From: Spirochaetaceae bacterium
GTDB taxonomy: Bacteria; Spirochaetota; Spirochaetia; Treponematales; Breznakiellaceae
Length of the DNA stretch: 15,854 nt
Reading direction: 5' to 3'
Assembly: GCA_031258625.1 (NCBI GenBank)
Contig: JAIRMO010000025.1
Span: 1-15,854, forward strand
Part shown: piece by piece, positions 1-15,649 of the stretch
How the letters are laid out: every line of letters starts with the position of its first letter
How positions within the stretch are numbered: the stretch's first letter is position 1
Made by a program: the position numbers and the translations under genes
Notes under the pieces: model-generated
Told to the model about the DNA's origin: nothing
The model's database searches: none
Seen by the model: only the letters and a program-made list of their open reading frames with translations

Positions 1-792
1 CCGCAAATCATCCAGATAGGGGCCGGCGATATCTTTCTCCGTTTCCGCCATGGGCTTTCCGACCCGGCTTGGGTCAAAATGGCCGCTCACCAGGCCCCCG
101 TTGCTGTACACCACGGCAACAGCCCCTTCATAGGGCCGTATCTCTTCCACCTGCCGCTGAATGGCGGTTATCTCAATATCGATACCCATGGAACCCACAA
201 AGCGGCCTTTGTTTTTGATCGGCATGGCGAGGGTGGTCATCAGGACCTCCCGGCCCGCGACTGTATACAGATAGGGTTCCACCAGGGTCTCGTTCCCGGT
301 CTGTTTCGGGATGAGGTAATAGTCCCCCACCCCGGGAACTTCATAGTCCGCCAGAGGTTCCAGGGTTATATCGATAACGCCGCGGAACCAGTAGGGGATG
401 AACCGTCCGGTGTGGTCCGTCCCCGCCGTATTGGCAAATTCCGCGTCCAGGCCGTCCAGGGCATTGGGCTCCCAGGCGCTTGAGGCGGCGACAACCTCGG
501 GATTCTCCTCCACCATGGCCCGGACCATCAGGCTAAAGAAGGGCCGCCGGTCCACCCGGTCTATTTCTTCATATTTCGACATAACCTGACCCATCGAGCG
601 GGCCGCGTCCAGATAAAGTTCCAGCCAGGCCTTGATTTCCAGGGCGTTTTCTTTGGCCAGATTGGTTATTTCATTGTCGATGAGGCTGGTTATCTGTCCC
701 TGGGCAAGGCTCAGGATAGTTCCGGTTAACGCGGCGGTTCCCGCAAGATTGAGGACGATGATCATAACCACAAGTTTTCTACCTATTTTCAC
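1..792 (-). CDS. Methyl-accepting chemotaxis protein, N-terminal part (cut by window edge)
   Basis: The first 264 residues of a chemoreceptor are visible; the gene continues beyond base 1. A GTG start at 792 follows a strong AAAGGAGG ribosome site. Residues 1-8 are a basic n-region (KIGRKL) and about 8-30 form the first membrane helix (VVMIIVLNLAGTAALTG). Residues 31-80 are the helix leading to the periplasmic sensor. From about 80 onward the sequence reads like a dCache-type sensor: FIPYWFRG at 131-138, a DYEVPGVGDYYLIPKQTG stretch at 149-166, VLMTTLAMPI at 183-192, and GRFVGSMGIDIEI at 196-208. The last motif is typical of the beta-sheet core of spirochaetal and clostridial dCache receptors. 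The second membrane helix, HAMP and methyl-accepting signalling domain would lie outside the window, so the receptor class is inferred from the sensor alone. The ligand is unknown. The gene stands apart from the etf operon by 441 bases and probably has its own promoter in the AT-rich stretch upstream. Confidence 0.88.
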   Translation of the reverse strand, partial: MKIGRKLVVMIIVLNLAGTAALTGTILSLAQGQITSLIDNEITNLAKENALEIKAWLELYLDAARSMGQVMSKYEEIDRVDRRPFFSLMVRAMVEENPEVVAASSAWEPNALDGLDAEFANTAGTDHTGRFIPYWFRGVIDITLEPLADYEVPGVGDYYLIPKQTGNETLVEPYLYTVAGREVLMTTLAMPIKNKGRFVGSMGIDIEITAIQRQVEEIRPYEGAVAVVYSNGGLVSGHFDPSRVGKPMAETEKDIAGPYLDDLR

Positions 793-1233: not shown

Positions 1234-2955
1234 TCAATCTACGCTATTGATTACTTCCCCATAGTTCTTGAGGAGGGTCCCGTCTTCGCATAAGATGAAG
1301 TTCCGGTTCGCCTCGATCCGGGAGGACATCCGGGTGATGAAGATCGAGGCAACCTTGAGTTTCCGGCCGCTGTGGGCCCCGTCCCGCAGGAGGAGGTAAC
1401 CGATGATGAGGTCCGTAGCCATTTCCACGAGCCTGCGGGAATGGTAGGTCAAAAACTGTTCATGCCCCTTGTAGGCCTTGACAAAATCCAGGGTCTCGTC
1501 AAAGAGTTTCCGGCCGGCGCGGATCTTTTCAAGCAGTTCCGGCCCCTGGGGAAAACCTGACCGGTCGTATTCGTCCAGGATCATCTGGGCGATACCGGAA
1601 GTTACGGGGCCGATGGCGGCAACGATCTGGAGCTGGGTGGTACCCTCGTAGATGTTGGTGATCCGGGCGTCCCGGTAGTGGCGTTCCGCGTTGAATTCCT
1701 TCATATAACCGGTACCGCCGTGGATCTGGATGGCGTCGTAGGCCACCTTGTTGGCCATTTCCGTGGTGTAGGCCTTGACCATGGGGGTAAAGAATCCGGC
1801 AAGCCGGGCATATTTCTTTTTTTCCTCGATAATTTCGCCCTTTTCCTCGGGATGTTTTTCCGAATAGTCTTCCAGCGCCTCCTTGAGGTCCACAAACCGG
1901 GAGGTTTCGTAAAGGAGGGTCCTGCCCGCCTCTATGGACACCTTCATCTCGGTGAGCATTTCGAATACCGGGGGAAGGGTCCGTACCGGGGCGCCGAACT
2001 GGACCCGCTTGGCCGCATAGCGGTCCGCCTCCCGGTAGGCCGCTTCGGCGATACCCACCGCCTGGGCCGCGATACCCAGCCGGGCGTTGTTCATGAGCCA
2101 CATGGTGTACTTGGTGAGCCCCCGCTGGCGTTCCCCCACCAACCGGGCCGGGGCGTGGTTGAACTGGAGCTCGCAGGTGGGGGAACCGTGGATCCCCAGC
2201 TTGTGTTCCAGCCGGCGGATGATCATCTTATCATCCCGCTCGTAGAGAAAGAAGGAAAGCCCCCGGGCGCCCCGCCCCTGATCCTCGCTCCGGGCCAGGA
2301 CCAGGCCGATGGTGCCGCAGCCGTTGGTGATGAAGCGCTTGACCCCGGTGAGGTACCAGGCGCCGTCATCCCCGGGGACCGCCTTGAGGTTCACCGCCTG
2401 AAGGTCGCTCCCCGCGTCGGGTTCGGTGAGGATCATGGAGGAACCCCATTCCCCGGAACAGAGCCGGGGAAGAACCGCCTGTTTCTGCTCCTCCGAGGCG
2501 AATTTGTTGATGGTTTCGGCGATGTCCTGCTGGAGGCCGAAGTTGAGGAAGGAAGCGTCCGCCCGGGCGATGATCTCCGCGGCAACGCTGAGGATGGTGG
2601 TGGGCATATTGAGTCCGCCGTACTGCCGGGGGATGCAGAACCCCATGAGGTCCGCCTGGGCGAACATATCCAGGGCCTTTTGGGTGGCCGGGTTGAGCCG
2701 CACCTGGTTGTTTTCCAGGACGGGCCCGGCCTCGTCCACCCCGGGGGCCGCGGGGGCGATAAACTCCCCGCAGATCTCAGCGATGATCGAGAGGACGAGC
2801 CGGTAGTTCTCCCGGGCGTCCTTTTCGTCCTTGGGGGCATAGGGATAGCGGCCCGCCTCCCGGAACCCCTCTTCCTTAAGCCGGACGATCCGGTCCAGGT
2901 CCAAATGTTCCAGATGAAACAAAATATCTTCGTTGTCTTTTAAAAAGTTTTCCAC
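1234..2955 (-). CDS. Acyl-CoA dehydrogenase, long (573 aa) subfamily
   Basis: This is an FAD-dependent acyl-CoA dehydrogenase, which interconverts acyl-CoA and trans-2-enoyl-CoA with ETF as electron partner. Translation starts at GTG 2955 after AAAGGA with 7-base spacing. Both family signatures are clear: LTEPDAGSD at 176-184 (flavin/substrate region) and QIHGGTGYMKEFNAERHYRD at 410-429. The catalytic base is expected to be Glu437 in IYEGTTQLQ (435-443). At 573 residues it is much longer than the usual roughly 380. It has an extended N-terminus (1-60), a charged insertion around 355-385 (DYSEKHPEEKGEIIEEKKK) and an extra helical C-terminal domain (about 450-573), as in FadE5-like or acyl-CoA_dh C-terminal-type enzymes. 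It is the last gene of the etfB-etfA-dehydrogenase operon, 41 bases after etfA. Chain-length preference and direction in vivo are unknown. In an anaerobe a reductive role on an enoyl-CoA is as plausible as beta-oxidation. Confidence 0.95.
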   Translation of the reverse strand: MENFLKDNEDILFHLEHLDLDRIVRLKEEGFREAGRYPYAPKDEKDARENYRLVLSIIAEICGEFIAPAAPGVDEAGPVLENNQVRLNPATQKALDMFAQADLMGFCIPRQYGGLNMPTTILSVAAEIIARADASFLNFGLQQDIAETINKFASEEQKQAVLPRLCSGEWGSSMILTEPDAGSDLQAVNLKAVPGDDGAWYLTGVKRFITNGCGTIGLVLARSEDQGRGARGLSFFLYERDDKMIIRRLEHKLGIHGSPTCELQFNHAPARLVGERQRGLTKYTMWLMNNARLGIAAQAVGIAEAAYREADRYAAKRVQFGAPVRTLPPVFEMLTEMKVSIEAGRTLLYETSRFVDLKEALEDYSEKHPEEKGEIIEEKKKYARLAGFFTPMVKAYTTEMANKVAYDAIQIHGGTGYMKEFNAERHYRDARITNIYEGTTQLQIVAAIGPVTSGIAQMILDEYDRSGFPQGPELLEKIRAGRKLFDETLDFVKAYKGHEQFLTYHSRRLVEMATDLIIGYLLLRDGAHSGRKLKVASIFITRMSSRIEANRNFILCEDGTLLKNYGEVINSVD

Positions 2956-2996
2956 GATCTTTTCCTTTATGAGTATGAGAGGCCGGGAACGGCGCC

Positions 2997-4010
2997 TTAT
3001 ACCCTGGCCTTGCAGGCCTTGATCATCCGGGGAATCACCTCGGAAAGGTCCCCCACGATGCCGTATTGGGCGATACTGAAGATGGGCGCCTCAGGATCGG
3101 TGTTGACGGCGATGATCCGGGCGGAAGCGTCCATTCCCGCCCGGTGCTGGATGGCCCCGGAGATGCCGCAGGCGATGTAAAGCTTGGGCCGTACCGTGGT
3201 ACCGGTCTGGCCCACCTGGTGTTCCTTGCCGATGAGCCCCGCGTCCACCGCGGCCCGGGAGGCCCCGACCTCCCCACCGAGGACCTCGGCCAGGCTTCGG
3301 ATAAGGGCGAAATTCTCCCGGGTGCCCACCCCCATGCCCCCGGAGACGATGATGTTCGCCCCCTTGAGGTTGACGGTTTTTTCTTCCAGGACCCGTTCAA
3401 GGATCTCCGTGGGGAAATCCCCCTCCCCCAGGGAGGCGGGGAGCCTGAGGATCTCCGCCTTACGGGTGTTATCCGGGGCGTTCATCCGCATGACCCCCTC
3501 CCGAACCGTGGCCATTTGGGGCTTATGCTCGGGACAGACGATGGTGGCGATGATGTTCCCCCCAAAAGCCGGCCGGATCTGGTAGAGGATGTTCCGGTAT
3601 TCCCGATCCTTTTGGGTATGGTCCCCGATTTTGAGGTCCGTACAGTCCGCGGTGAGCCCCACCCTCAGGTTGGAAGCCACCCGGGGGGCCAGATCCCGGC
3701 CGCCGGTGGTGGCCCCGTAGAGGACGATCTGGGGTTTGTAGTCCTTGATGACCCGGATCATCAGCTTGCTGTAGGGGATGGGGGTATAAAACCGAAGCCG
3801 GGGGTCCTCCACGAGACAGACCACGTCGGCCCCCAGGGCGGCGATCCGGGGGACTTCCCCGGAGACCTCTTCGCCGAAAAGGGCGGCGCTTACGGGAACC
3901 CCCAACTCGTCCGCCAATTCCCGGGCCTTGGACACCAATTCCAGGCTTACCTCGGCTGTTTTTCCGCCCTCCTGCTGAATATATACCATGACACTGTTTT
4001 CCGCACGCAT
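2997..4010 (-). CDS. etfA: Electron transfer flavoprotein, alpha subunit
   Basis: This is the alpha subunit of ETF, which carries the FAD that passes electrons to or from the neighbouring dehydrogenase. The chosen start is ATG 4010: it follows AGGAG at 6-base spacing and gives a normal 337-residue EtfA. The open frame extends upstream to 4085, but those 25 residues overlap the end of etfB and are unlikely. The N-terminal domain (about 7-200) has the EtfA/B nucleotide-binding-like fold, with YGATTGGRDLAPR at 98-110 and QIRPAFGGN at 144-152. The C-terminal FAD domain (about 215-337) shows SGGMGVG (223-229), GASRAAVDAGL (249-259), QVGQTGTTVRPKLYIACGIS (265-284), GAIQH (285-289) and NTDPEAPIF (303-311), the conserved FAD-binding series. 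There is no added ferredoxin domain at the N-terminus, unlike CarE of the caffeyl-CoA reductase system. The gene lies 16 bases downstream of etfB and is certainly co-transcribed with it. Confidence 0.96.
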   Translation of the reverse strand: MRAENSVMVYIQQEGGKTAEVSLELVSKARELADELGVPVSAALFGEEVSGEVPRIAALGADVVCLVEDPRLRFYTPIPYSKLMIRVIKDYKPQIVLYGATTGGRDLAPRVASNLRVGLTADCTDLKIGDHTQKDREYRNILYQIRPAFGGNIIATIVCPEHKPQMATVREGVMRMNAPDNTRKAEILRLPASLGEGDFPTEILERVLEEKTVNLKGANIIVSGGMGVGTRENFALIRSLAEVLGGEVGASRAAVDAGLIGKEHQVGQTGTTVRPKLYIACGISGAIQHRAGMDASARIIAVNTDPEAPIFSIAQYGIVGDLSEVIPRMIKACKARV

Positions 4011-4026
4011 TACGCTCTCCTCTCCC

Positions 4027-4866
4027 TTACCCCAGGGTATGATCCGCGATAAGCTCGTGGACCAGGCCCGTGATCCCCCCTTCACCGGGATCGATATACC
4101 GGATTTCCCCGGCGGTGAGGACCACGGAGGTGATGTTTTTTACCTTGGTGGGGGAACCCGAAAGGCCGCACTGTTCCGGATCCGCCTTGATGGCGCTGAT
4201 GTCCCAGAGGGCCATCGCCGAATTACCCCGGGGATCCGCCTGGGGGCTCACCGCTTTATAGGCCATGGTTTTCTTAGCCGAAGGAGGCCGGGGGGCTTCC
4301 CCTTCGGCGGTAAAGGTGAGCAAAACCGGGAGGCCCGTCCGAACCCGCTCCCAGCCCCCCTCCACGGAACGCCGGGCGGTGATGGTCCTTTGGGGGATGT
4401 CCACCGCTTCGATCCGGGACACGCTGGTAATCTGGTTACACCCCAGCTTTTCCGCGGTTTGGGGGCCCACCTGGGCGGTATCCCCGTCGATGGCCTGACG
4501 GCCGCAAAAAACCAGGTCCCAGGGCCCGGTGGTTTCAATGGCGCACTTGAGGGCGTAGGAAGTGGCCAGGGTATCCGCCCCGGCAAAGCCCCGGTCCGAG
4601 ACCAGGGCGGTAAAGTCCGCCCCCCGGTAGAGGCACTCCTTGAGGATGGCCGCGGCCGCCGGGGGGCCCATGGTGATCACCTGTACCCTGGTCCCGGGGA
4701 AACGGTCCTTGAGCCGCAGAGCCGCTTCCAGGGCGTAAAGGTCGTCGGGGTTAAAAATCGCCGGCAGGGCGGCCCGGTTTACGGTCCCGTCCTCCTTCAT
4801 GGCATCCCCGGTAATATTCTGGGTGTCCGGCACTTGTTTGACCAGGACTACCAAATTCAAACCCAT
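4027..4866 (-). CDS. etfB: Electron transfer flavoprotein, beta subunit
   Basis: This is the beta subunit of ETF, forming the heterodimer with the adjacent EtfA and binding AMP or, in bifurcating ETFs, a second FAD. It starts at ATG 4866 after AGGAG with 6-base spacing and is 279 residues, slightly longer than the usual 250-265. Family motifs are KQVPDT (10-15), NPDDLYALEAALRLK (39-53) and the ETF-beta signature region FCGRQAIDGDTAQVGPQTAE (120-139), which contacts the nucleotide. The C-terminal GSPTKV (237-242) reaches into the subunit interface in known ETFs. It is the first gene of the operon, immediately downstream of the promoter at 4886-4914. The overall style is that of ETFs from anaerobes, some of which bifurcate electrons from NADH to ferredoxin and an enoyl-CoA. 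That activity cannot be assigned from these motifs alone. Confidence 0.96.
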   Translation of the reverse strand: MGLNLVVLVKQVPDTQNITGDAMKEDGTVNRAALPAIFNPDDLYALEAALRLKDRFPGTRVQVITMGPPAAAAILKECLYRGADFTALVSDRGFAGADTLATSYALKCAIETTGPWDLVFCGRQAIDGDTAQVGPQTAEKLGCNQITSVSRIEAVDIPQRTITARRSVEGGWERVRTGLPVLLTFTAEGEAPRPPSAKKTMAYKAVSPQADPRGNSAMALWDISAIKADPEQCGLSGSPTKVKNITSVVLTAGEIRYIDPGEGGITGLVHELIADHTLG

Positions 4867-4959: not shown

Positions 4960-7900
4960 CTAATACGAGTAGTTCTTTGGCTTTACCCTACTTGTTTTTA
5001 ACCTATAAAAAGAGGTGTTGTTCATCACCCTGCCGAAGGTATTAGGATCACGGGTCCAGTATTCGCCGTTTTTGATCCCTCCCTGGGAAATCCGGGGGCC
5101 CAGGGCGGGAATATAGGTACCGTAATTGGCCACCACGGTCCCGATATGACCGTGATAGTTGTCATTATCACCGGTTTTAAGGTATCCCGGATTAACATAG
5201 GAAACCGCCGCCATATTACCCATATTCGCCTCAATTTGCGCCATCAATCCGGTGTAAAGCTGGTCGTATTCGGAACTCAAAAGTAAGCCGATTTTATTGG
5301 CAATACCTGCCTCTCGTAAGGTTTTGGTGAGATCATTCGTGCCGAGTACGGCTTCGATAGTGTCGAGAAACACAAAATTACAGTAGGTTTCCCCGTTCCG
5401 GGGCTGCAATTCTTCTTTAAGGCTTACCTGATTGGCGGTATCCCTTATGGCATAGGCTTTTTGACTATTTTCGAATGAAAATTCCGGCAGATGGACCATT
5501 CCAAATTCACGCAAAAGGCCGTTTTCAATCGTTATTCTATTGTTATTTACCGCCAGCGCCGTTGTCCCTTTCCACATCCACAAGCTCCGGTTTTCCGGAT
5601 CCTGGGGATCCGCGGTATATTCCAGCCCGGCGGCGATCATCATGTCCTGGATCGCGGTAATATTCTCTTCGGTGGGATTCAGGTCTAAAATATGCAGTAA
5701 TCCTGTTTCAATCCCCGAGGAGCCCAGGGTTCCGCCCGGACCTTTTACCGGTTCCTTGGTTCTGGTTCCGTCGTAATTTATATACAACCCGTCCACATCC
5801 CTTAAATACCCGCTGCCGTCGTATTTCAAGCCCCCCGTGCCGGTGAGCTGCCAAAAATCCCGGTTTGAATCATAGGCGTCCAAGACGGCTTCGGTTACGG
5901 AATAATTTTGTTGATCCAGGGCATATTGATACCAGAGGGCTTCCCCCCGGAGACCGGCGCTTAAGCCGTCCGCTCCGTAGGTTCCCATAAGCCCCAGGAC
6001 GGCGCCGATATGTCCGGTAACCGCCTTATTCCGTTCAATAATTTGTCCGTAAACGCCGTCATCCCTGCCGTTACGATAGGCCTCGTGGCTGAAAATAACG
6101 TTTAACCCGAACCTGCCGCCCTCTTCCAGGGCATCCCGGCCCAGGAAAACGGTCTTTACCCCCGTATAGTCATCGTATATACTTTCGGTACCTTCGGCGG
6201 ATCTGTTTTCCAGATACCGGGTCCGCCCCTCCAGGACCGCTTCGAATTCGGCCCGGTTAACGGCATCCCCCGAATACAAGGTCCGCATCTGACTTGCGTA
6301 TTGCCGGGCGTTTTTTTCTTTTGAAGCAAGGAGCCGGGCGTTTACCTTCCAGGCCTCAAGCCCCCGGAAAGCGCCCGTCATGGCCCCCGGGCTCACATCA
6401 ACACCTCCGGTTCCAAAGGCCATATTAACCCCGTCACGGCCCAAGTGTAATTCCAACAAGCCGGAATTTACCTTTCCGCCGGTGAGCAGGTCCAGATTAA
6501 GAAGATTTAAGCCAAAATCCCCGTTGAAAGCGTAGTTTACCCCCTGTCCGGTAACCCCCCCCGCAAGGGAAGACAGTTTTTCCCCATCCGTATGGAGCCG
6601 GCTATAAAAACCGTCCAGTCCCCAATTCATCACCCCGGCGGTAAAGCCGCCGGCCATGCCGCTTAAGGCTCCTATGGAGGCGCTTTTCATACCGCCGGTA
6701 AATACATCCCCCGAGAACCCAAGGCCGTCTTTTGAATTATAGGTAACGGCGTTTAAAGCGCTGGTGACGGTTCCGGTGGTTAGGGACTGGATCCCGGTCA
6801 TCGCCGTCTGAACCATAACCTTGGAAAGACCCGTGAGATTTTGTGTGACCATTCCGGTGAGCCCCTTCTGAAGAAAACTTGAAGAAGCGGAAGCGGCTAA
6901 GGAACCAGCGCCGTTAAACGCCCCGCCTATCAGGGAACCGGCCGTGGTGATGACCGCCTTTTTCCCAAACTCAAATCCCACCTCATCCCAGCTTTTGAAA
7001 TTTCCGGCCGCGTCCATGGCGCCAAAAAACAAATCATCGGATAAATTAACGGCGGTATTGATCGCCGCGGCAGCGGCAAACCCGAGTCCCCCGGAGAAGG
7101 CCCCCGCCACCGCTCCTATCGCGGTGGAAGCTATGGTCGATACCACCTGGAGGCCGGTATCTATCGCGCTTCTTATGCTTGGCGCCTGAAACCAACTGTC
7201 CCGGGAATCCCAAAGGGGTTTTTCCCATAAAGCGGAATTAACCGCGGCGATTCCGTTCTTTTCTTTTAACGACCAGTAGATATAGGAACGCAGTAATTTT
7301 CCCAGTTGTCCTGTTCCATCATCTGAAAAAAGTTCGTGTATTTTCATATCGGATTTGACATCCGGTTTTACGGTCGGTCCTTCTCCGATATGTTGATTAA
7401 ATAAGCCGGCATCGTTTTTATCGGTACCAAAGATCTTTTCGGTTATCCCTTGAACCTCCGTATACATATTGTTTATGAGGGCCTGTACAGCCAAAATGTC
7501 TAAATTTTTTATTCGATCTTCGTTTAAATCGGCGGATAGTTTTACGGGGGCCATCTGATAATATTCGTAACCATCAACCGCTGCCGATGTGGTTATCACC
7601 GGATCAAAGAGCGTAGAATGAACGATTACCTTCTTTACATATTGCCTTCCGCTTTTCCTCCACTGCCCCTCGATTATAAAGACATCATCCATGTTTTCAT
7701 CAAAATTTTTATTAGCCTCATCAACGTTTTTGACCAGGTTATCAAGCGCTTCCTTTACCATCTGCTGAACATGAACGGCCACCCTTTTCGCCTCCCGGGC
7801 CGCCAGTTCCTCGTTGGTTTCCTTTGCCAACATAACCGCCGCCGCTTGAACTGTTCCGGAATTCCAGGCGCTAGGTCCGCCCATGCCCCGGCGTACCTGG

Positions 7901-10900
7901 CTTGCTATCGTCCCGGTAATACCATTCGCCGCGGCAAAGGCTGTTTCCAAATTTATAATCCCCGTACTGTTCAGTAACTGCCGCAGGGTTTTTTCCGCTT
8001 CTTCCGTACTATTAACAAGGCTCATACCCGCCGGATCCCGGGTATCCATTCTGCGAATCATCATTTCCGCTTCAGAGCCGACCATGGCCAGCATGGTTTC
8101 GGAAGCGGTATTGTGAGCCGCTTCGGCGGCCAGATCCACCCATCGGGCCTTGTCTTCAAGCCCCGCAAGATAAGCGGCAGCCCAGGTTTCGTTGACCCGT
8201 TTGTATTCTTCATTAAAATCTTTTATCCACCGGGCATAAGACTCCTGCATGGTTGTTATTCCTGTTTTCCAATCGATCCTTCCCCGTTCAAGGATAAGAT
8301 TTGACGCCTCCATCCAGGAACGGTACTTCTCCTGAAGATCATAACGCTGTATATCCCATTCCAGTTCCCTTGCCGCAAGTTCCGCGTTATACCTTGCCGA
8401 ATACGCCCGTTGTATCAGTCCGGTTAATTCTTCGGCAAGTCCGATATATTCGGTTTTATAACCGGTACCATTTTCCATAATTCCGCTTAAATCACGCATA
8501 ATGGTTTGTTCAAGATTTTCCAAATGGGTTTTTCGCGCCGGTGTTTTATATCCATAGGCAGATACGGCGGCCGTATTCAGTTCCTTCATATCCGCCTCGC
8601 CTTCAACAAACGCGGCAAAAACCTCACGGTAAGTCGTTTCGTTTTTCAGCCTGATTTGTTCGTCCTCAATCCATGCCTGTTCAAAATTTCTTTTGTCATC
8701 CTCCTTTTTGTTTTTGCTCCACCGGCTCAATTCTTTTATGGCTTCAACGGCATTATTATAGGAACCGCCTGTATCCTTTTCCATTTCCGACCAGTAGTTT
8801 TTAAGTTTCTTTATTTCCTCATAATTAAGCCCCCCGGAAAGCAACAAGGCGCTTTCTATATTGTTCCAGCCGATTTTTTTATTCCCCCCTTCCATACCGC
8901 TTAACCGGGCCAGGGTATTACAGGAATTACTATATATTCCCAAATAAGCGTTTAAAGATTCAAGGGTCATTCCCAATCCAACCCGGGATTTCTCTACCAT
9001 TTCGTTTATCTGAGAAAGAGCAGGGGTAACGTGATTCGCGGTGGCACGTATTTTATCGAGTCCTTTTTGATAAAAATGCCTGGCAATCGGAATTTTTAAC
9101 TTTCCCTTGAGCCTTGATTTTTCATTGTTTAGTTTTGTCATGAGGTTTATATATTCGTTCTGCTCCGATATATAAGAGAACCCCTTGGAATCTCTACCGC
9201 CGTTTCCAAGGATCGTTAAAATCGTATAAAATTCAAGATCCGCTTTTTCTTCGGCACTCAACAGATCCCAGGCGTTCTTCTGTGCCGCCGCCAATCCCCC
9301 GGACCTATAGGACCCCGCGATTGTATAAACCCGCGTATCCTCCATGAACCCGCCGTACACTACAGGCATCATCCCCAGATTCTCATCTTTGTTTAGCGCT
9401 TCAGCGGGACTATACCAGTCCGCCATGTTTTTAAGTGTCGTATTATGAGCGATTAACTGGCTTAGGAGGTAATCCCGGGCTAATCCCCATTGGCTGTATT
9501 TATTAGCATCCGTATCAACTTTATACTTGACCATGTTTGCGCTTAACTGCCTTAACGCTTCCTCAAATCGAGAAACCATATTTGCCTCAAACCCCGTATT
9601 TCCCCGGGGTTCAAAAAAATCCTGTAACATCCCGGCCTGTCCGTTGGTCATTTCTTGGATTTGGAAGGAACTGTTATAAGCAAAACAGAGTCTGCCGTTT
9701 TTAATTTGTATTAAATCCATTAACTGCCATTCGCTCTTATCACCCGGCGGCTGATAGGCCGGCGGATAATTTATGGAAACGCCCAATTCGGCCAAGTACC
9801 GTTGATAATTATCATAGTAGGTGTTGTTTTTTTGTTTTTCTTTAGCAATCGCGTCTTCAAGCGAACCGAGGGCTTTTACGGATAATAACATCCGTTGAAA
9901 ACTCTCTTTGTAATTGTTGTATAATGTTTCATACTCATTGTCCGCGTAAGGCCTTTTTTCCTCTTTTTCGTATAATCCGGCCAGGGCATTCAGGGCTGCC
10001 GAAGCCCGTTCATACCGTTCATTGCTATACGACAGATCCTCATAAGGTTTTTTATAGTTTAGGGTGAATTCACCGGCGCCGGGATTGTTGTCCAAATAAG
10101 CGGTACTTGCCCATCTTCGGATCGCATCTTGTGTTTCATAGGCGGCCCTGGTGTCCTCAAGAAGGACATAATCTTTCTTAACCCTGTTGTAAATTTCGTC
10201 ATATACCGATCCGGCGGAAGCAAAGTCCGATGCCGCGTTTCCATAGGCGGCGGCTTTAAGATTATACGCATCCTGGAGGGTTATAATTTCATCGGATGTT
10301 TTTTCAAGTTCCGCTTTGATTTTGGCGCTGCTCTGTTTTGAAGCGGTATACCCCATGCCGAGTTGTTCAATTTCTTTTTCCAGGGAAGCGGCAAGGGTAT
10401 GGTTTTTTTGAAATTCACCGGATTCCATATAATAGTTGTCATAAAGAACATAATCCACGGTTTTTATTAACCCTTCGTCCCAATCAAGAAGGGGATTGTC
10501 CTGATATTTTTTTATCCCGGCCCGTATGTCTTCGTCCTCTGCCGGATCTTGGGCGTTCATAAACATCCGGAGGGCATAATTAAGCCTTTGGGTGTCCTGG
10601 GCCGCTTTTTCATAGGTATCCGCAAGAACACCTTCCCGCCAATTTTTAGCGCCTTTTATTCCGCTATATGTTCCTTCAGGATCCCCCTGAATACCCGGGG
10701 TTGCTTTCTTATCTTCGTTGCCGCTCCGGTTATTATAGTCTTCAAGAAAACCGGCATCCAAAAATTGCCGCCAATGGCTTCTCCCTTCCCCTTCGGCGTC
10801 ACCTATGGTTTTATTCATATCCTCATAGGCCTTTAACAGGGCATATTCATAATCCAAACATTCCTGACGCCCGGACAGGGCATCAAAAATAAGGGGTAAT

Positions 10901-13900
10901 TCCCGGTTTATGATTTCATAAAAATAATCATACCCCTGTGTTTCATCAATGGAACGGTCATCCCATTGACCGGACTGTACGTACCAAACCGCTTCATCCA
11001 CGGATTTTTTCCGTATCTCCTCATCGGCATATCCGTGGCGTACTAAAGCCATGGCCGTTAAGGCATCCCGTAGGGCAGCCTCATCGTTAAAGGCGCCGGT
11101 ACCGTATTGTTTCGCCAGGTCCCGGCCGATTCTTTTTATGGCTTCCTCTTCAACGGCGGCTTTATCAATATAGGTAAATAGATCCGGCGGCAGTTGTAAA
11201 GCGGCGCTTAAAACCATGGCGCTCCCCGGATTGGCATAGAGCAGGGTGTCCGCCACAAGCTGTACCGCCTGAGATTGTTTTTTGACGGCTTCTATTTCAT
11301 TCTTTACGGCGCCGCTGGAACCGGTGATACTGCCGTTGATATAAATTGTTTTGGCCGCCATATAGGCAATAAAAGACTCCTGCCACGTTTGTATCTCGAC
11401 TTTGATCCATTGGGGCAGTGAATCAAGTTGTCCGTTCAATTTGAATAAAAAATTTGCGAGGTTATGGGTTAGGGATCCTTCCATCCCGGCAAGGGCGGTT
11501 CCCATGGATTTTATGCCGGGAAGAAACGTATCGTTCAGGCTGACGCCGTAGGACTTAAAAAGTTCCCCCGTCTTTTGTAAACCCCGAAGCCCCATTTCCC
11601 GTATCACCGGAGCGGCTTGCGGGCCGGTGATTTGATACGCCGTTAATAAGCCCCGGCTCCGGGCGGCCGCGGTCATCTCGGCTTCTAAAAAACCGTACCC
11701 GACGGCTTTTCCCGATTGAGTAACAAAACAGGAGCCCCCGTTCAAAAACCACGCGACGATTCCCTCGGATTGGCCGGCGTTTTCCAGGGCCTCGTAATAA
11801 TCCGCGGCACTACCCGCTTCGACAGACTCAAGGAGGCGCTGAAATTCTTTTAATATGCCGAGAATCTTCGCGGCATCCGAAGAACCGGCAAAACAAAAGG
11901 TTGATAATAATTTTGCCCGATCCCCTCCCGCGCTTTCCCCTAAAAAACAGGACAAACCTTCCGTCTCCAGGGCAAGACGGGCTTTTAATAAGGCCCGGGC
12001 ATCCCGTTCAACATCGTTATTGAGGCTGGCTTCAAGTCCCAGCCGATCAAAAATTTCCTGTTCCATAACATCCGGTTCATAACCCCGGGCGCTGAAATAC
12101 CAATCCCTGGTTGAATTACAGGCTAAAAGATCCAGGGCCTTCATCCTGGTTTCTACCTGAACCTGGGCCTGGGCTTTTGCCGTTTTTGTCATGGCACAGA
12201 TCAGTTTGTTATATTGTTCCTGAATCTCCCCCTGATCCGCCGCCGGGGCATCGGCAAGGGCTTCTTTTTTTTTCAATAACAGATCTTCAATAAGGGCATA
12301 AAACGGATCATCCCCTTCAAGACCAAACCCGTCAATAACATCCGGTATGGTATGATAAGCCTCAAAAACATTGATATTTGAAACAGCCTCCATCAAATCG
12401 GCCAGGGATTTTCCAATCTCGTCGTCCCCCAAAATAAGCTGCTTTAGCATTTGTCCGGTAGTTTCAAGTTCCTGGGCAAATCCAAGTTCATGGGCCCGTT
12501 CAAGATACCGGACATATATCGCATCCTCCCCTTCGGCGGCGAACAAATGGTATTTCCGGAGCAATTCTTCATATTTTGATACCAGTTCATCCAGGACAAA
12601 ATCATTGCGCCCGGCGGCATACGCGGCCATGATTATCGCATAGGCCTGGTTTTTTTCTTCCAGTTTGTTCTCCGCGTCCCGCAGCGCGGCGGCCGCGTTA
12701 CTCATGGATTCCTGGGCTTCTTTTACCCCGATTCCCGCGGCGCTTAACCGGGACAACGCCGCTTCATAAGCGCCGAGGGCATCATCATAGGATTGTTTCG
12801 CCCGCTCCCATGCCTTAACGCCTTCACTATCGGTCATGCGTCCGGCGCTTAATTCTTCCGCGTAGGAAACTACCGCTTCGGCGATGGTTTTTCGTTTCTC
12901 CCAATAACCGGCCGCCGCTTTTGCCCGGATGAGTTCTATCTGATATTCGTCCAGATTGAAATCCTCACTTGCCGCGCCTTCGGCTAAGATATCCGTGAGG
13001 GCGCCGGTCCCCATCACCATATTAAAATCATTAACCAGGGCATCCCGGGCGGCTCTGGCCTTATCGATATAGGAATCATACAGATCAGACCAGTTTTTTA
13101 ACTCCCGGGCTATTTTAAAAGAATTACTCAGGGGTATTCCCAACCTTTCTAATTGTTCAATCGCTTCTTTCTCCTGGGCTTTACTTTTCCTTCCGTTTAT
13201 AATATCTTTTATCAGCAGACTCATCCGGTCCCCGGAGCCATACCGCTGTTCGCAGACGGCCAAAATCGTTTGCCAATAACCGGTGAGTTCCCCGGATATC
13301 CATGAGGAAAACCCTCCTCCCGCAAGAGCAGGGGCGTTCTTTTTAACGTATTGACTGAGCCAGAAATTGACGTTCTCCTGGGCCCCGGCCACAACGGCGC
13401 CGCAGGTGATGTAGGTGTCCACCCAGGCTTTAGCCCGTCCCGCCCCGGCCTCGGTCCTGATCACAAGATCCCGTTCAAATTCGGCCCTTGCTCCGGCGAT
13501 TGCGGCTTCAAGATTCTCCGACGCCCGTTTGAAAATCGCCGCCCCCGACTCAAAAAGGGTTTTTGCTTTTGCTTCCCAATTACGCCTTTCCTTTTCAAGC
13601 CGGTTAAAGGCGTTACTCCAGGCTTCTTCCCCCGCCAAATAATATTGCCCCGCTTCCTGTTCCCATTCGATACGGCGTACAAAAAACCGCTCCTCCGCAT
13701 CCGCCCATGCTTTAAGGCCCCGCTCAAATTGTTCCCGGTAGGCTTCAAGCCATTCGGATCCGGCGAGGGCCAAATCGCCGTTACCGGTTTCAGCCGCCTC
13801 TATCCGGGTTTCCAGAGCGGTTATTCCCTGGGTACAGAGGGCTTCGGTTTCCTCTATCAGCCGGGCGGTAACCATGGCCGCCGCTTCTTCATCACTTTTT

Positions 13901-14670
13901 TTCCGTAAGCTCCACACGTCCCCGGTTCTTTGGGCAACAAAAATCCGTTCTTCCCGGGCAACCAGGGCTTCAAATTCCCTCCGCCTGTCCGATACCGCGT
14001 TAGCGGTCATATTCCGAAGTTTTTTTTCAAAGGCGTCCCGATCCGCTTCGGGGATATAATCCAGGAGTTCAGGAAACAAGGAGGCTAGGCGGGCCTCATA
14101 TTGGGTCGTAACGGAATTGATAATTTTTTCCGCGTTTTCCCGCCACTGCTTTTGATCCTCCTCCGGAGACCCCGCTGTTTCGCCGGGACGTATCACCAGG
14201 GGATCGCCGGTTTCCTCATCATAACGGATCTCTCCCTTTTCATCCAAATGATACATAAACCGCAAATTGGTTTCCCTGATCTCCTGAACCGAATCCTCCA
14301 ACTGTTCCACCATGCCGGTATTAAAAAAACGCCTCAGAAGCCATTGGGTAAAACGGTTCTCTACCTCCGCCTCACTCCAGGCTCTAATGGTTTCCCCCGC
14401 CGCCTCAAGGAGGGCCCGGTCTTCGTAAAGTTCCGCGGCGGCCAGTTCCCAGGCATTCCGGGCCATAACCATTCCCCGCCGGGCTTCGGCCATCCATTGT
14501 TCAGGGTTGACCTCCCGGTCCGCTCTTTGAAAATGATACTCAAAGGCCCCGGAATTAAAACCCAGGATGTCCGGTTTTGTCTCGCCGGAAAAAACACTCA
14601 TACAAAAACCCAGGAACATCACCGCCGGGGTGATCCTTTTGAAAAAGAAATAAAAAGGTACTGCCGTCAT
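4960..14670 (-). CDS. Giant secreted coiled-coil protein with putative C-terminal cysteine amidase/peptidase module
   Basis: This is a single open frame of 3236 codons. ATG 14670 follows ACGAGG at a suitable distance. Residues 1-28 look like a signal peptide: basic KR at 11-12, hydrophobic ITPAVMFLGFCMSVFS, likely cleavage V-F-S|G at 28/29. Cys23 follows LGF, a poor lipobox. Residues about 30-2490 are mostly charged, helix-forming sequence. A Trp-patterned segment occurs at about 320-385 (FFVRRIEWEQEAGQYYLAGE) and a similar one at about 2090-2180. About 2500-2690 is an Ala/Gly/Ser/Thr-rich hydrophobic stretch (IASTAIGAVAGAFSGGLGFA). About 2700-2777 is Gly/Leu-rich (LLELHLGRDGVNMAFGTGGV). His2862-Glu2863 lie in HEAYRNGRDDG. 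The C-terminus has Cys3097 in GETYCNFVF, His3175 in NYHGHIGTVV and Gln3196 in PRISQGGIKN, resembling CHAP/NlpC-P60-like peptidoglycan amidases. From memory, the whole resembles very long spirochaetal proteins grouped in Leptospira as TIGR04388. Export and domain calls are inference; the frame itself is certain. Confidence 0.93.
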   Translation of the reverse strand: MTAVPFYFFFKRITPAVMFLGFCMSVFSGETKPDILGFNSGAFEYHFQRADREVNPEQWMAEARRGMVMARNAWELAAAELYEDRALLEAAGETIRAWSEAEVENRFTQWLLRRFFNTGMVEQLEDSVQEIRETNLRFMYHLDEKGEIRYDEETGDPLVIRPGETAGSPEEDQKQWRENAEKIINSVTTQYEARLASLFPELLDYIPEADRDAFEKKLRNMTANAVSDRRREFEALVAREERIFVAQRTGDVWSLRKKSDEEAAAMVTARLIEETEALCTQGITALETRIEAAETGNGDLALAGSEWLEAYREQFERGLKAWADAEERFFVRRIEWEQEAGQYYLAGEEAWSNAFNRLEKERRNWEAKAKTLFESGAAIFKRASENLEAAIAGARAEFERDLVIRTEAGAGRAKAWVDTYITCGAVVAGAQENVNFWLSQYVKKNAPALAGGGFSSWISGELTGYWQTILAVCEQRYGSGDRMSLLIKDIINGRKSKAQEKEAIEQLERLGIPLSNSFKIARELKNWSDLYDSYIDKARAARDALVNDFNMVMGTGALTDILAEGAASEDFNLDEYQIELIRAKAAAGYWEKRKTIAEAVVSYAEELSAGRMTDSEGVKAWERAKQSYDDALGAYEAALSRLSAAGIGVKEAQESMSNAAAALRDAENKLEEKNQAYAIIMAAYAAGRNDFVLDELVSKYEELLRKYHLFAAEGEDAIYVRYLERAHELGFAQELETTGQMLKQLILGDDEIGKSLADLMEAVSNINVFEAYHTIPDVIDGFGLEGDDPFYALIEDLLLKKKEALADAPAADQGEIQEQYNKLICAMTKTAKAQAQVQVETRMKALDLLACNSTRDWYFSARGYEPDVMEQEIFDRLGLEASLNNDVERDARALLKARLALETEGLSCFLGESAGGDRAKLLSTFCFAGSSDAAKILGILKEFQRLLESVEAGSAADYYEALENAGQSEGIVAWFLNGGSCFVTQSGKAVGYGFLEAEMTAAARSRGLLTAYQITGPQAAPVIREMGLRGLQKTGELFKSYGVSLNDTFLPGIKSMGTALAGMEGSLTHNLANFLFKLNGQLDSLPQWIKVEIQTWQESFIAYMAAKTIYINGSITGSSGAVKNEIEAVKKQSQAVQLVADTLLYANPGSAMVLSAALQLPPDLFTYIDKAAVEEEAIKRIGRDLAKQYGTGAFNDEAALRDALTAMALVRHGYADEEIRKKSVDEAVWYVQSGQWDDRSIDETQGYDYFYEIINRELPLIFDALSGRQECLDYEYALLKAYEDMNKTIGDAEGEGRSHWRQFLDAGFLEDYNNRSGNEDKKATPGIQGDPEGTYSGIKGAKNWREGVLADTYEKAAQDTQRLNYALRMFMNAQDPAEDEDIRAGIKKYQDNPLLDWDEGLIKTVDYVLYDNYYMESGEFQKNHTLAASLEKEIEQLGMGYTASKQSSAKIKAELEKTSDEIITLQDAYNLKAAAYGNAASDFASAGSVYDEIYNRVKKDYVLLEDTRAAYETQDAIRRWASTAYLDNNPGAGEFTLNYKKPYEDLSYSNERYERASAALNALAGLYEKEEKRPYADNEYETLYNNYKESFQRMLLSVKALGSLEDAIAKEKQKNNTYYDNYQRYLAELGVSINYPPAYQPPGDKSEWQLMDLIQIKNGRLCFAYNSSFQIQEMTNGQAGMLQDFFEPRGNTGFEANMVSRFEEALRQLSANMVKYKVDTDANKYSQWGLARDYLLSQLIAHNTTLKNMADWYSPAEALNKDENLGMMPVVYGGFMEDTRVYTIAGSYRSGGLAAAQKNAWDLLSAEEKADLEFYTILTILGNGGRDSKGFSYISEQNEYINLMTKLNNEKSRLKGKLKIPIARHFYQKGLDKIRATANHVTPALSQINEMVEKSRVGLGMTLESLNAYLGIYSNSCNTLARLSGMEGGNKKIGWNNIESALLLSGGLNYEEIKKLKNYWSEMEKDTGGSYNNAVEAIKELSRWSKNKKEDDKRNFEQAWIEDEQIRLKNETTYREVFAAFVEGEADMKELNTAAVSAYGYKTPARKTHLENLEQTIMRDLSGIMENGTGYKTEYIGLAEELTGLIQRAYSARYNAELAARELEWDIQRYDLQEKYRSWMEASNLILERGRIDWKTGITTMQESYARWIKDFNEEYKRVNETWAAAYLAGLEDKARWVDLAAEAAHNTASETMLAMVGSEAEMMIRRMDTRDPAGMSLVNSTEEAEKTLRQLLNSTGIINLETAFAAANGITGTIASQVRRGMGGPSAWNSGTVQAAAVMLAKETNEELAAREAKRVAVHVQQMVKEALDNLVKNVDEANKNFDENMDDVFIIEGQWRKSGRQYVKKVIVHSTLFDPVITTSAAVDGYEYYQMAPVKLSADLNEDRIKNLDILAVQALINNMYTEVQGITEKIFGTDKNDAGLFNQHIGEGPTVKPDVKSDMKIHELFSDDGTGQLGKLLRSYIYWSLKEKNGIAAVNSALWEKPLWDSRDSWFQAPSIRSAIDTGLQVVSTIASTAIGAVAGAFSGGLGFAAAAAINTAVNLSDDLFFGAMDAAGNFKSWDEVGFEFGKKAVITTAGSLIGGAFNGAGSLAASASSSFLQKGLTGMVTQNLTGLSKVMVQTAMTGIQSLTTGTVTSALNAVTYNSKDGLGFSGDVFTGGMKSASIGALSGMAGGFTAGVMNWGLDGFYSRLHTDGEKLSSLAGGVTGQGVNYAFNGDFGLNLLNLDLLTGGKVNSGLLELHLGRDGVNMAFGTGGVDVSPGAMTGAFRGLEAWKVNARLLASKEKNARQYASQMRTLYSGDAVNRAEFEAVLEGRTRYLENRSAEGTESIYDDYTGVKTVFLGRDALEEGGRFGLNVIFSHEAYRNGRDDGVYGQIIERNKAVTGHIGAVLGLMGTYGADGLSAGLRGEALWYQYALDQQNYSVTEAVLDAYDSNRDFWQLTGTGGLKYDGSGYLRDVDGLYINYDGTRTKEPVKGPGGTLGSSGIETGLLHILDLNPTEENITAIQDMMIAAGLEYTADPQDPENRSLWMWKGTTALAVNNNRITIENGLLREFGMVHLPEFSFENSQKAYAIRDTANQVSLKEELQPRNGETYCNFVFLDTIEAVLGTNDLTKTLREAGIANKIGLLLSSEYDQLYTGLMAQIEANMGNMAAVSYVNPGYLKTGDNDNYHGHIGTVVANYGTYIPALGPRISQGGIKNGEYWTRDPNTFGRVMNNTSFYRLKTSRVKPKNYSY

Positions 14671-14714: not shown

Positions 14715-14729
14715 TTCTTTCCTTATCCG

Positions 14730-14759
14730 GCGGTTTCAAAACTTCAGTCTTGAAACCGC
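14730..14759. repeat. Palindrome 2 of the divergent region (10-bp stem)
   Basis: GCGGTTTCAA (14730-14739) and TTGAAACCGC (14750-14759) are perfectly complementary with a 10-base interval. Within the interval ACT and AGT extend the dyad symmetry. It contains CAAAACT, which recurs in palindrome 3, suggesting the two belong to one family. It lacks a terminator-like T-run. Confidence 0.65.
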
Positions 14760-14773
14760 TGTCCTTTATAGGG

Positions 14774-14833
14774 TGAGCTTGTTCCAAAACTAATTTACTG
14801 TGCGCTAACGCGCACGGCTTTGGAACAGCCTCA
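14774..14833. repeat. Palindrome 3 of the divergent region (long nested stem-loop)
   Basis: An outer stem pairs TGAGCTTGTTCCAAA (14774-14788) with TTTGGAACAGCCTCA (14819-14833), perfect over 8 bp (GTTCCAAA/TTTGGAAC) and extending through a T-G wobble and one C-C mismatch. An inner stem GTGCGC/GCGCAC closes a TAAC loop (14800-14815). Together they form a nested 60-base structure. It sits between the two divergent genes and is not followed by a T-run. Candidate roles are a mobile palindromic repeat, a protein-binding site or a structured leader. Confidence 0.65.
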
Positions 14834-14905
14834 ACTTATACATCCGTTCCTGAATTTGATATTCCGGACGGTTTTAGCTCAACCTGATTTTAGGAGTTTT
14901 GCATC

Positions 14906-15649
14906 ATGTCTCTACAGTTTGACCAGGATCGAATAACAAAACGCATAAAGGAGAGTCTTGGTAAAATATACGCTGAGGCGGATCCTGCTGTTTTGAATCA
15001 GTATCGTGACGTAATCAAAAAGGAAGTTTCGTTTTTCAAACGCTCATATTTTGCCGCGTATCTTCTTATGGAGCTGGATCAACAGGGCGGCGGAAAACGT
15101 TACGGCGGCACCGGACGGAACGGGCGCCCTTACCGGGAAAATCCGGCCTATGGTTATAAATACGGAGACGGCTCCGATGCCGCCGGGGAGGGACAAAAAG
15201 GCGATTATCCCCTGGCGGAGGAGGATTCGGTAAAGCTGTTTTTCGGCGCGGGCCGAAGCAGGAAAGTATTCCCCCGCGAAATTCTGGGGCTTATCATCTC
15301 GAAAACCTCTACCGCCAAAGAGGATATCGGCGCGATACGGATTCTGGATAATTATTCCTTCGTACAAGTCCGCAATACCGTGGCGGACGATATTATCAAT
15401 AATTTGAACGGGAGTGTATTCCGGGGAAGGCCCCTGGTGGTAAATTTTGCCCGGATAAAGAAAGATGCCGGACAGTCTCCTGATGGGGAAAACCGGTGGG
15501 ACGACGGTTCCGGTGATAACGCTTCCCCAGAATACGATTCGGGCGGCATCGGGACCGGGGATTTTTCCACTGGAAATTCGCCCGCCGGAAAACCGCCGGC
15601 CGGAGATTCGTCAGATGAGGACGAGAATGGCGATACAAAAGGCGTTTAG
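14906..15649 (+). CDS. Small protein with a DbpA-type RNA-binding domain, no helicase
   Basis: The start is ATG 14906 with TAGGAG 9 bases upstream. The 247-residue product has three parts. Residues 1-60 are a helical N-terminal domain ending in hydrophobic FAAYLLMELDQQ. Residues 61-100 are a Gly/Arg/Tyr-rich linker (GGGKRYGGTGRNGRPYREN). Residues 107-182 match the RRM-like domain found at the C-terminus of the DEAD-box helicase DbpA: VKLFFGAGRSRKVFPREIL, then DIGAIRILDNYSFVQV and GRPLVVNFA. In DbpA this domain binds 23S rRNA helix 92; here there is no helicase core in the protein or nearby. The last 60 residues are an acidic Gly/Ser/Asp-rich tail. A role in RNA binding, perhaps ribosome- or mRNA-related, is inferred; the target is unknown. 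It is divergent from the giant gene, and its 3' end overlaps a convergent gene by 39 bases. Confidence 0.87.
   Translation: MSLQFDQDRITKRIKESLGKIYAEADPAVLNQYRDVIKKEVSFFKRSYFAAYLLMELDQQGGGKRYGGTGRNGRPYRENPAYGYKYGDGSDAAGEGQKGDYPLAEEDSVKLFFGAGRSRKVFPREILGLIISKTSTAKEDIGAIRILDNYSFVQVRNTVADDIINNLNGSVFRGRPLVVNFARIKKDAGQSPDGENRWDDGSGDNASPEYDSGGIGTGDFSTGNSPAGKPPAGDSSDEDENGDTKGV

Follow-up and report, generated by a model that had tools for sequence, protein, structure and literature searches.

Polymorphic toxins are a known kind of protein, for which several secretion routes have been described. As laid out in PMC3482391, polymorphic toxin systems have an export signal, a conserved shaft, a C-terminal end that can be exchanged, cassettes that have been displaced, partner genes linked to the toxin gene, and a protease-like domain ahead of the end. 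The family of very large spirochete proteins described below shares the first four of these and has candidates for the last two. The family differs from such systems in having a helical shaft in which Pfam finds no RHS or filamentous-hemagglutinin repeat and in being linked to an RND-type operon; the term “rnd” does not occur in the first 300,000 of the 357,715 characters of PMC3482391. CdiA/CdiB offers a second comparison, with a very long exported protein, a C-terminal toxin (putative in our family), and displaced tail-plus-partner cassettes in common; one TIGR04388 giant even ends in CdiA_C. However, P0001, the protein studied here, has no two-partner-secretion or hemagglutinin domain (Pfam, E of 1), and the genes upstream of the giants are of RND type, no CdiB-like gene having been identified among them. 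The linked operon resembles AcrAB-TolC-type systems in its OEP duct, adaptor, and two ACR_tran proteins but differs in that its two RND genes are divergent and lie in tandem, and in having two Big_5 lipoproteins, additional lipoproteins, and a giant cargo gene. The nearest described family, TIGR04388 (“Lepto_longest,” from the Leptospirales side), appears to be only distantly related. It shares with the P0001 family an export signal, a long N-terminal region, variable C-terminal ends, and, near several of its members, TolC-like and Big_5-type genes, but in the members scanned a pretoxin-HINT domain precedes the end, a place taken in the P0001 family by a zincin-like domain. In the open-license literature, we found no paper linking polymorphic toxins with an RND complex, nor did the literature searched yield one in which such a toxin, an RND operon, and a helical giant are combined.

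P0001 is encoded in a stretch of 15,854 bp (referred to as the window), which is the whole of one contig (C92) in a 2.1-Mb draft genome of 242 contigs (72% complete). The main features are as follows.

4960..14670, minus strand: giant open reading frame of P0001, 3,236 amino acids plus stop (ATG to stop, 9,711 bases uninterrupted)
14584..14670, minus strand: putative Sec signal peptide, about residues 1 to 29 (by eye and from the hydropathy maximum)
7381..14583, minus strand: conserved, largely helical shaft, about residues 30 to 2430 (partial model and conservation)
6571..7188, minus strand: hydrophobic Ala/Gly-rich domain, about residues 2495 to 2700 (hydropathy and composition)
5815..6324, minus strand: zincin-like domain, about residues 2783 to 2952, with His2862-Glu2863
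4963..5685, minus strand: exchangeable C-terminal tail, about residues 2996 to 3236, with Cys3097 and His3173/His3175
14728..14840, no strand assigned: break in synteny relative to the RND operon, in repeat-rich DNA (end of homology to L079, and repeats)

The initial annotation had drawn attention to the single frame of 9,711 bases, and the frame is borne out on the minus strand. Stop codons are abundant on the plus strand across 4960 to 14670, and 200 mononucleotide shuffles of the same bases produced stop-free runs of up to 235 codons. Compared over 3,230 codons with its approximately 90% identical same-genus orthologue in L134, P0001 differs at 179 first, 156 second, and 377 third codon positions, and the differing codons comprise 311 synonymous and 318 nonsynonymous cases. 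The uninterrupted frame, the shuffles, and the pattern of codon-position differences therefore show that P0001 is a genuine coding gene. P0001 is covered by no family of Pfam or NCBIfam, so that the full-length match to a characterized family that would have overturned the earlier reading was sought in these two collections and did not appear. A search of its own genome with the last 807 residues gave no second match at an E value of 0.01.

The layout proposed at the outset held to differing degrees. The export signal is visible by eye and in a crude hydropathy scan, the maximum within the first 200 residues falling at residue 9, and we treat it as putative. The predicted helical stalk of more than 2,400 residues is supported by a mostly helical model of residues 24 to 760 (mean pLDDT 67, pTM 0.31), and this support covers that segment of a shaft that runs to about residue 2430; the model has no PDB match at an E value of 0.001, and the PDB sequence matches of the N-terminal region are coiled-coil-like chance hits. 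The hydrophobic domain is present as described, at residues ~2400 to 2800 (Ala plus Gly, 26% of residues 2401 to 2800), with the highest 19-residue hydropathy of the whole protein at residue 2507. Ahead of the tail lies a domain recognized by a zincin-like motif and weak fold matches, whose His-Glu pair is invariant in the giant family and whose motif in P0001 is HEAYR, without a second zinc-binding His. The putative C-terminal hydrolase fared less well. Cys3097 and the His of a GHI motif are retained in divergent short forms of the tail, and these conserved residues alone suggest a hydrolase, but searches with the tail against Pfam, NCBIfam, and the PDB (by sequence and by profile) gave no match, models of NlpC/P60 and other Cys-peptidase families included, and hhalign relates it weakly to tail class 5 (E of 0.0056, probability 6.5). 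The model of the last 797 residues has pLDDT values below 50 from about residue 2935 onward and is unreliable there; therefore, we claim no fold for the tail.

A database search returned 69 relatives of P0001 of similar length. Those named by source are from Treponema or Spirochaetaceae (the others bear a product name only), and a one-pattern scan of genome contigs gave 30 loci, every one titled as a spirochete, which agrees with the proposal that the system is spirochete specific. The last 2,346 residues of P0001 match 63 of 145 genomes of the same family at an E value of 1e-5. When viral contigs were searched with two short patterns, 10 stretches matched and none was confirmed as a relative of the giant.

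The giant family has a conserved core with exchangeable C-terminal ends. Only seven of the 69 relatives (P0002 to P0008) align through to the C-terminal end of P0001; in the other 62 the last aligned segment ends at P0001 residue 2760 to 3142. When 69 sequences (P0001 included, the partial P0055 left out) were linked by phmmer over their last 230 residues, 12 groups resulted, and these tail classes are single-linkage clusters, of which class 0 may lump several M23 types. Among the 67 long sequences, dissimilar tails occur in 5 of 21 pairs with cores at least 75% identical, and shared tails occur in 11 of 389 pairs with cores less than 30% identical. In the giants of L126 and L127, both of the same order as the window, the cores are 89% identical and the tails unrelated, identity per 100 residues running at 74 to 99% as far as residue 2600 and then at 34, 20, and 22%. 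The P0001 type of tail is present in 7 of the 145 genomes, five of them from the window's genus, and it is also found in three short proteins of 327 to 456 amino acids (P0072 to P0074) and in P0071, the copy in G124, which is cut by the contig end.

Displaced (orphan) tail cassettes also occur in relatives. The L127 giant ends in its own tail, followed by a 271-amino-acid exported-looking gene; directly behind these lies an L126-type tail (96.9% identity over 350 amino acids) with a displaced L126-type downstream gene (91.3% over 321 amino acids). Four further C-terminal modules of 602 to 1,344 amino acids, then exported-looking genes of 205 to 366 amino acids, are found in G027 (L083), and one further module of 1,010 amino acids is found in G027 (L064). 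Of the two options originally offered for the giant, a surface adhesin or a polymorphic effector, tail exchange and displaced cassettes support the second.

What the tails might do can be read in part from the recognizable ones. PF01551 (M23 peptidase) is precomputed for 17 of the 69 relatives, and a Pfam scan of 10 tails gave no match for eight, an M23 match at the cutoff for one, and NlpC/P60 for P0069. In other tail groups, the residues retained are either a Cys and a His or a Ser-Asp-Gly-Cys motif preceded by a His. We apply the terms Cys hydrolase, “L,D-transpeptidase-like,” and “C39-like” to such tails on the strength of these motifs, and the last two are to be read as labels because the class profiles A6, A7, and A8 have no credible PDB relative (none for A6 and A7, and chance-level matches for A8).

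Exported genes are linked to the giants in relatives. The earlier reading that neither an immunity gene nor a repeat cassette sits beside the giant is correct for the window, where no immunity candidate adjoins P0001 and the next gene, at 94 bp, is etfB, but it does not extend to the relatives, in which cassettes are displaced as described above and an exported-looking same-strand frame stands behind 27 of 43 complete giants. Such a gene follows 5 of 8 short modules as well, and in the control set 18 of 94 genes in the same loci score as exported. The rule accepted a same-strand frame starting at −60 to +120 bp, for giants followed by 400 bp or more of sequence, and under it 16 of the 43 complete giants have no exported downstream gene. 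Alternative starts were allowed for candidates and the first start only for the 94 controls, and the partner count is therefore biased toward the toxin reading; the rule is also crude, having passed over a gene in L055 that looks like a lipoprotein gene and admitted a questionable frame of 89 amino acids in L052. Similar partner proteins were seen in 22 of 65 pairs sharing a tail class and in 11 of 431 pairs whose classes differ. Pfam recognized five of nine partners scanned, as NADase_transloc (two), FGE-sulfatase (two), and SH3_3 (one).

Several of these neighboring genes deserve individual mention. Exported-looking genes of the FGE-sulfatase type (PF03781) lie directly behind giants in L071 (14514 to 15356) and L136 (19560 to 20474) and are candidate immunity proteins. 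The F5/8-type NADase_transloc domain (PF25302) recurs in partners behind tails of the SDGC type (L060, 3760 to 4902; L126, 17300 to 18262; L083, 13580 to 14677; L199, 94 to 516). In G012, a short form of the P0001 tail adjoins a NADase_transloc F5/8-type frame, the domain of class 2 partners, and 128 bp behind it on the other side is an exported-looking YARHG-domain protein; a search made without a positive control found a relative of the YARHG-domain gene in none of five genomes of the window's genus. In the window itself, etfB belongs to a group at 1234 to 4866 (minus strand) of an acyl-CoA dehydrogenase, etfA, and etfB, which resemble acryloyl-CoA reductase-type genes below the NCBIfam cutoffs, and etfB also lies behind the giant in L044, L079, and G124, which have the window's tail class. 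Also in the window are a gene for a 247-amino-acid protein with a DbpA RNA-binding domain (PF03880) in a frame without the helicase part (14906 to 15649, plus strand) and the first part of a gene whose product has an MCP-like PDC/dCache sensor region (1 to 792, minus strand), cut by the window end.

The giants are linked to an RND operon. In 27 of 36 testable loci, the giant is immediately preceded on its own strand by an RND2-type gene, which is not so in the other 9; of the 41 loci, including the window, 4 had too little upstream sequence (the window among these) and 1 lacked the N terminus, and the 40 loci of relatives were picked from 63 genomes by contig completeness rather than at random. 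Where uncut, the operon runs in the order small lipoproteins, TolC-like duct, adaptor, two Ig-like lipoproteins, RND1, and RND2, as read on seven contigs followed further upstream: C173, from the window's own genome, and contigs of G106, G078, G028, G027, G142, and G134. Family searches covered the C173 genes and two of G106; on the other contigs, gene order, gene length, and the sequence visible served for the matching. In the L108 operon, the duct matches OEP (PF02321), and the NCBIfam TolC model TIGR01844 below its cutoff; the adaptor matches TIGR01730 above cutoff; and ACR_tran (PF00873) is found twice. Judged by these family matches, the linked operon brings together the duct, adaptor, and RND permease genes of an RND tripartite system. 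In both tandem RND proteins (L108, 8531 to 14736; L086; L088; L089), one acidic residue of TM4 is kept and the TM10 lysine expected in a proton-driven pump is absent; by comparison with the AcrB motif, the usual proton-relay residues are partly missing in both.

The association extends beyond adjacency. Eight of the nine genomes with nonadjacent giants have RND1 and RND2 types elsewhere, and in the ninth locus (L045) an RND pair lies ~1 kb upstream of the giant in two frames. The RND2 type is distinct, being found in 62 of the 145 genomes at E values below 1e-180, with the next match at 1.8e-102. Across these genomes, 51 have both giant and RND2, 12 the giant only, 11 RND2 only, and 71 neither, giving a Fisher P value of 6.8e-17, which rests on lists compared by hand, is uncorrected for relatedness, and is affected by incomplete genomes; such Fisher values are not independent tests because the loci are related. 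Hence, the initial statement that the giant has no secretion partner holds for this contig but not for the relatives or for the window's genome, which carries the RND operon on C173. Homology between the window and L079, a 90% identical relative, ends at position 14727, and C173 stops matching at its position 14735. Repeats are present at both break ends, in the window and in C173; one dispersed repeat, GAGGCTGTTCCAAAA, has 17 copies in the genome, often as a hairpin (reversed control, 0), with a window copy at 14819 to 14832 (minus strand). The separation of P0001 from the RND operon is either a rearrangement or an assembly fault.

A comparison with TIGR04388, which the initial annotation had recommended, identified the nearest described family, but P0001 itself is not a member. 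The model (curated cutoff, 45 bits) matches neither P0001 nor its genome, and L126 (28.7 bits) and L127 (22.4 bits), relatives of P0001, score below the cutoff; we have rejected membership on these grounds. Among 296 genomes of the phylum, 14 match the model at an E value of 0.001, and 7 exceed the cutoff. The L130 giant matches it weakly; a profile of the P0001 family recovers L126 and L127 at E values of 3e-133 or better and L130 at 1.5e-16. By hhalign, eight TIGR04388 giants align with the P0001 family over 191 N-terminal columns (E of 2.5e-4, probability 43). The L126 giant has an adaptor, RND1, and RND2 directly upstream, and near the L130 giant are a duct, an adaptor, two Big_5-type genes, and two RND genes. 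One gene of each type lies near the L122 giant, and L121 and L123 have a duct and a weak Big_5-type match; beyond L126 and L127 the RND linkage is only suggestive because the matches are no stronger than those to generic RND proteins. Pretoxin-HINT and toxin domains are present in TIGR04388 giants: all five that were scanned carry pretoxin-HINT, with CdiA_C behind it in one and LysM plus phage lysozyme behind it in one. The three giants scanned from L126, L127, and L136 have no pretoxin-HINT domain. In Leptospira, LA_3725 is reported with a pretoxin HINT domain (PMC4751964). L128 and L131 (G281 and G329) contain giants of 4,601 and 2,752 amino acids, both cut by the locus, with a 5,043-amino-acid frame in G281; these giants match TIGR04388 near the N terminus only and have lipoprotein-like genes upstream.

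We consider it likely that P0001 is the large protein of a spirochete polymorphic toxin system, with RND-dependent export or display and the steps at the tip that follow included in that reading. The giant would be exported by Sec, and its long helical shaft would hold or project it in or beyond the envelope, while the hydrophobic and zincin-like domains may pass on or release the interchangeable tip into a neighboring cell, the zincin-like domain being the candidate for the release itself. P0001 would be a toxin aimed at neighboring bacteria, with a tip that is probably peptidoglycan cutting. The recognized tips in relatives are predicted peptidoglycan hydrolases (M23 and NlpC/P60) and the others putative Cys/His or L,D-transpeptidase-like enzymes; peptidoglycan as the target of the Cys/His tip of P0001, together with its chemistry and export route, is what we infer from sequence comparison. 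In relatives, the gene that directly follows the giant would encode a small protein, exported or anchored by a lipid, that shields the producer's own periplasm. The giant gene is usually placed last in a predicted operon of lipoproteins, a TolC-like duct, an adaptor, two Ig-like lipoproteins, and two RND proteins, whose products may form the export or display machine of the giant, and P0001 is perhaps exported through this complex. The arrangement in the window, with P0001 apart from the RND operon and no immunity gene adjacent, counts against the toxin-system reading.

RND systems are known mainly as small-molecule pumps, and this favors a version in which the giant is a polymorphic toxin but the RND operon serves lipids or small molecules, the giant leaving by another way or waiting in the periplasm until lysis. 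The 9 of 36 giants that are not adjacent to RND genes point the same way, as do the intact RND operons with no giant behind them elsewhere in those genomes (L109 and L110, for example). Adjacency in 27 of 36 loci, the co-occurrence of giant and RND2, and the adjoining of giants to RND genes as far off as L126, L127, and L130 argue for a closer connection, and we regard the pump version as a serious possibility whose chance is well under even. That the giant is no weapon, and instead a self-directed scaffold in the periplasm, with a tip that opens the peptidoglycan of its own cell for RND/TolC or other envelope assembly, strikes us as unlikely: tail exchange, displaced cassettes, exported partner genes that track tail class, and the HINT and CdiA_C domains of TIGR04388 giants all speak against a purely domestic role, although such a role would accommodate the RND linkage, the peptidoglycan hydrolases among the recognized tips, and the retention by the window's genus of one tail class without an immunity gene.

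Two further readings account for the shape of the protein. The export signal, great length, and helical stalk would suit a large surface adhesin, the other option of the initial annotation, which gained no specific support; Pfam and NCBIfam find no adhesin family or repeat, and exchangeable enzymatic ends with linked partner genes do not fit this description, making it highly improbable. A phage-type tape-measure protein ending in a peptidoglycan hydrolase would show a similar order of features (a long helix, a hydrophobic stretch, and, in relatives, an M23 or NlpC/P60 end). The giant nevertheless carries an export signal, its neighbors are metabolic and RND genes rather than a phage neighborhood, no relative was confirmed in viral contigs, and the best PHROG match has an E value of 0.055, and we have rejected this reading as scarcely credible.

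In its widest form, the polymorphic toxin reading becomes a spirochete delivery system spanning the phylum, in which Sec-exported giants of ~3,000 residues would be handled by an RND1/RND2-adaptor-TolC complex dedicated to them, together with Ig-like lipoproteins, and displayed or injected, the tip would be freed in the neighbor's periplasm, and lipoproteins would confer immunity at home. We advance this wider proposal tentatively, as somewhat short of an even chance; if true, it would add a new route for very large proteins via RND-type machines. If the RND linkage is functional, spirochetes would own a weapon class of their own, proteins of over 300 kDa would be among the cargo that RND machines can serve, and the TIGR04388 giants, so far unexplained, would gain a testable role. 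The natural pairs of tip and partner make the question directly testable.
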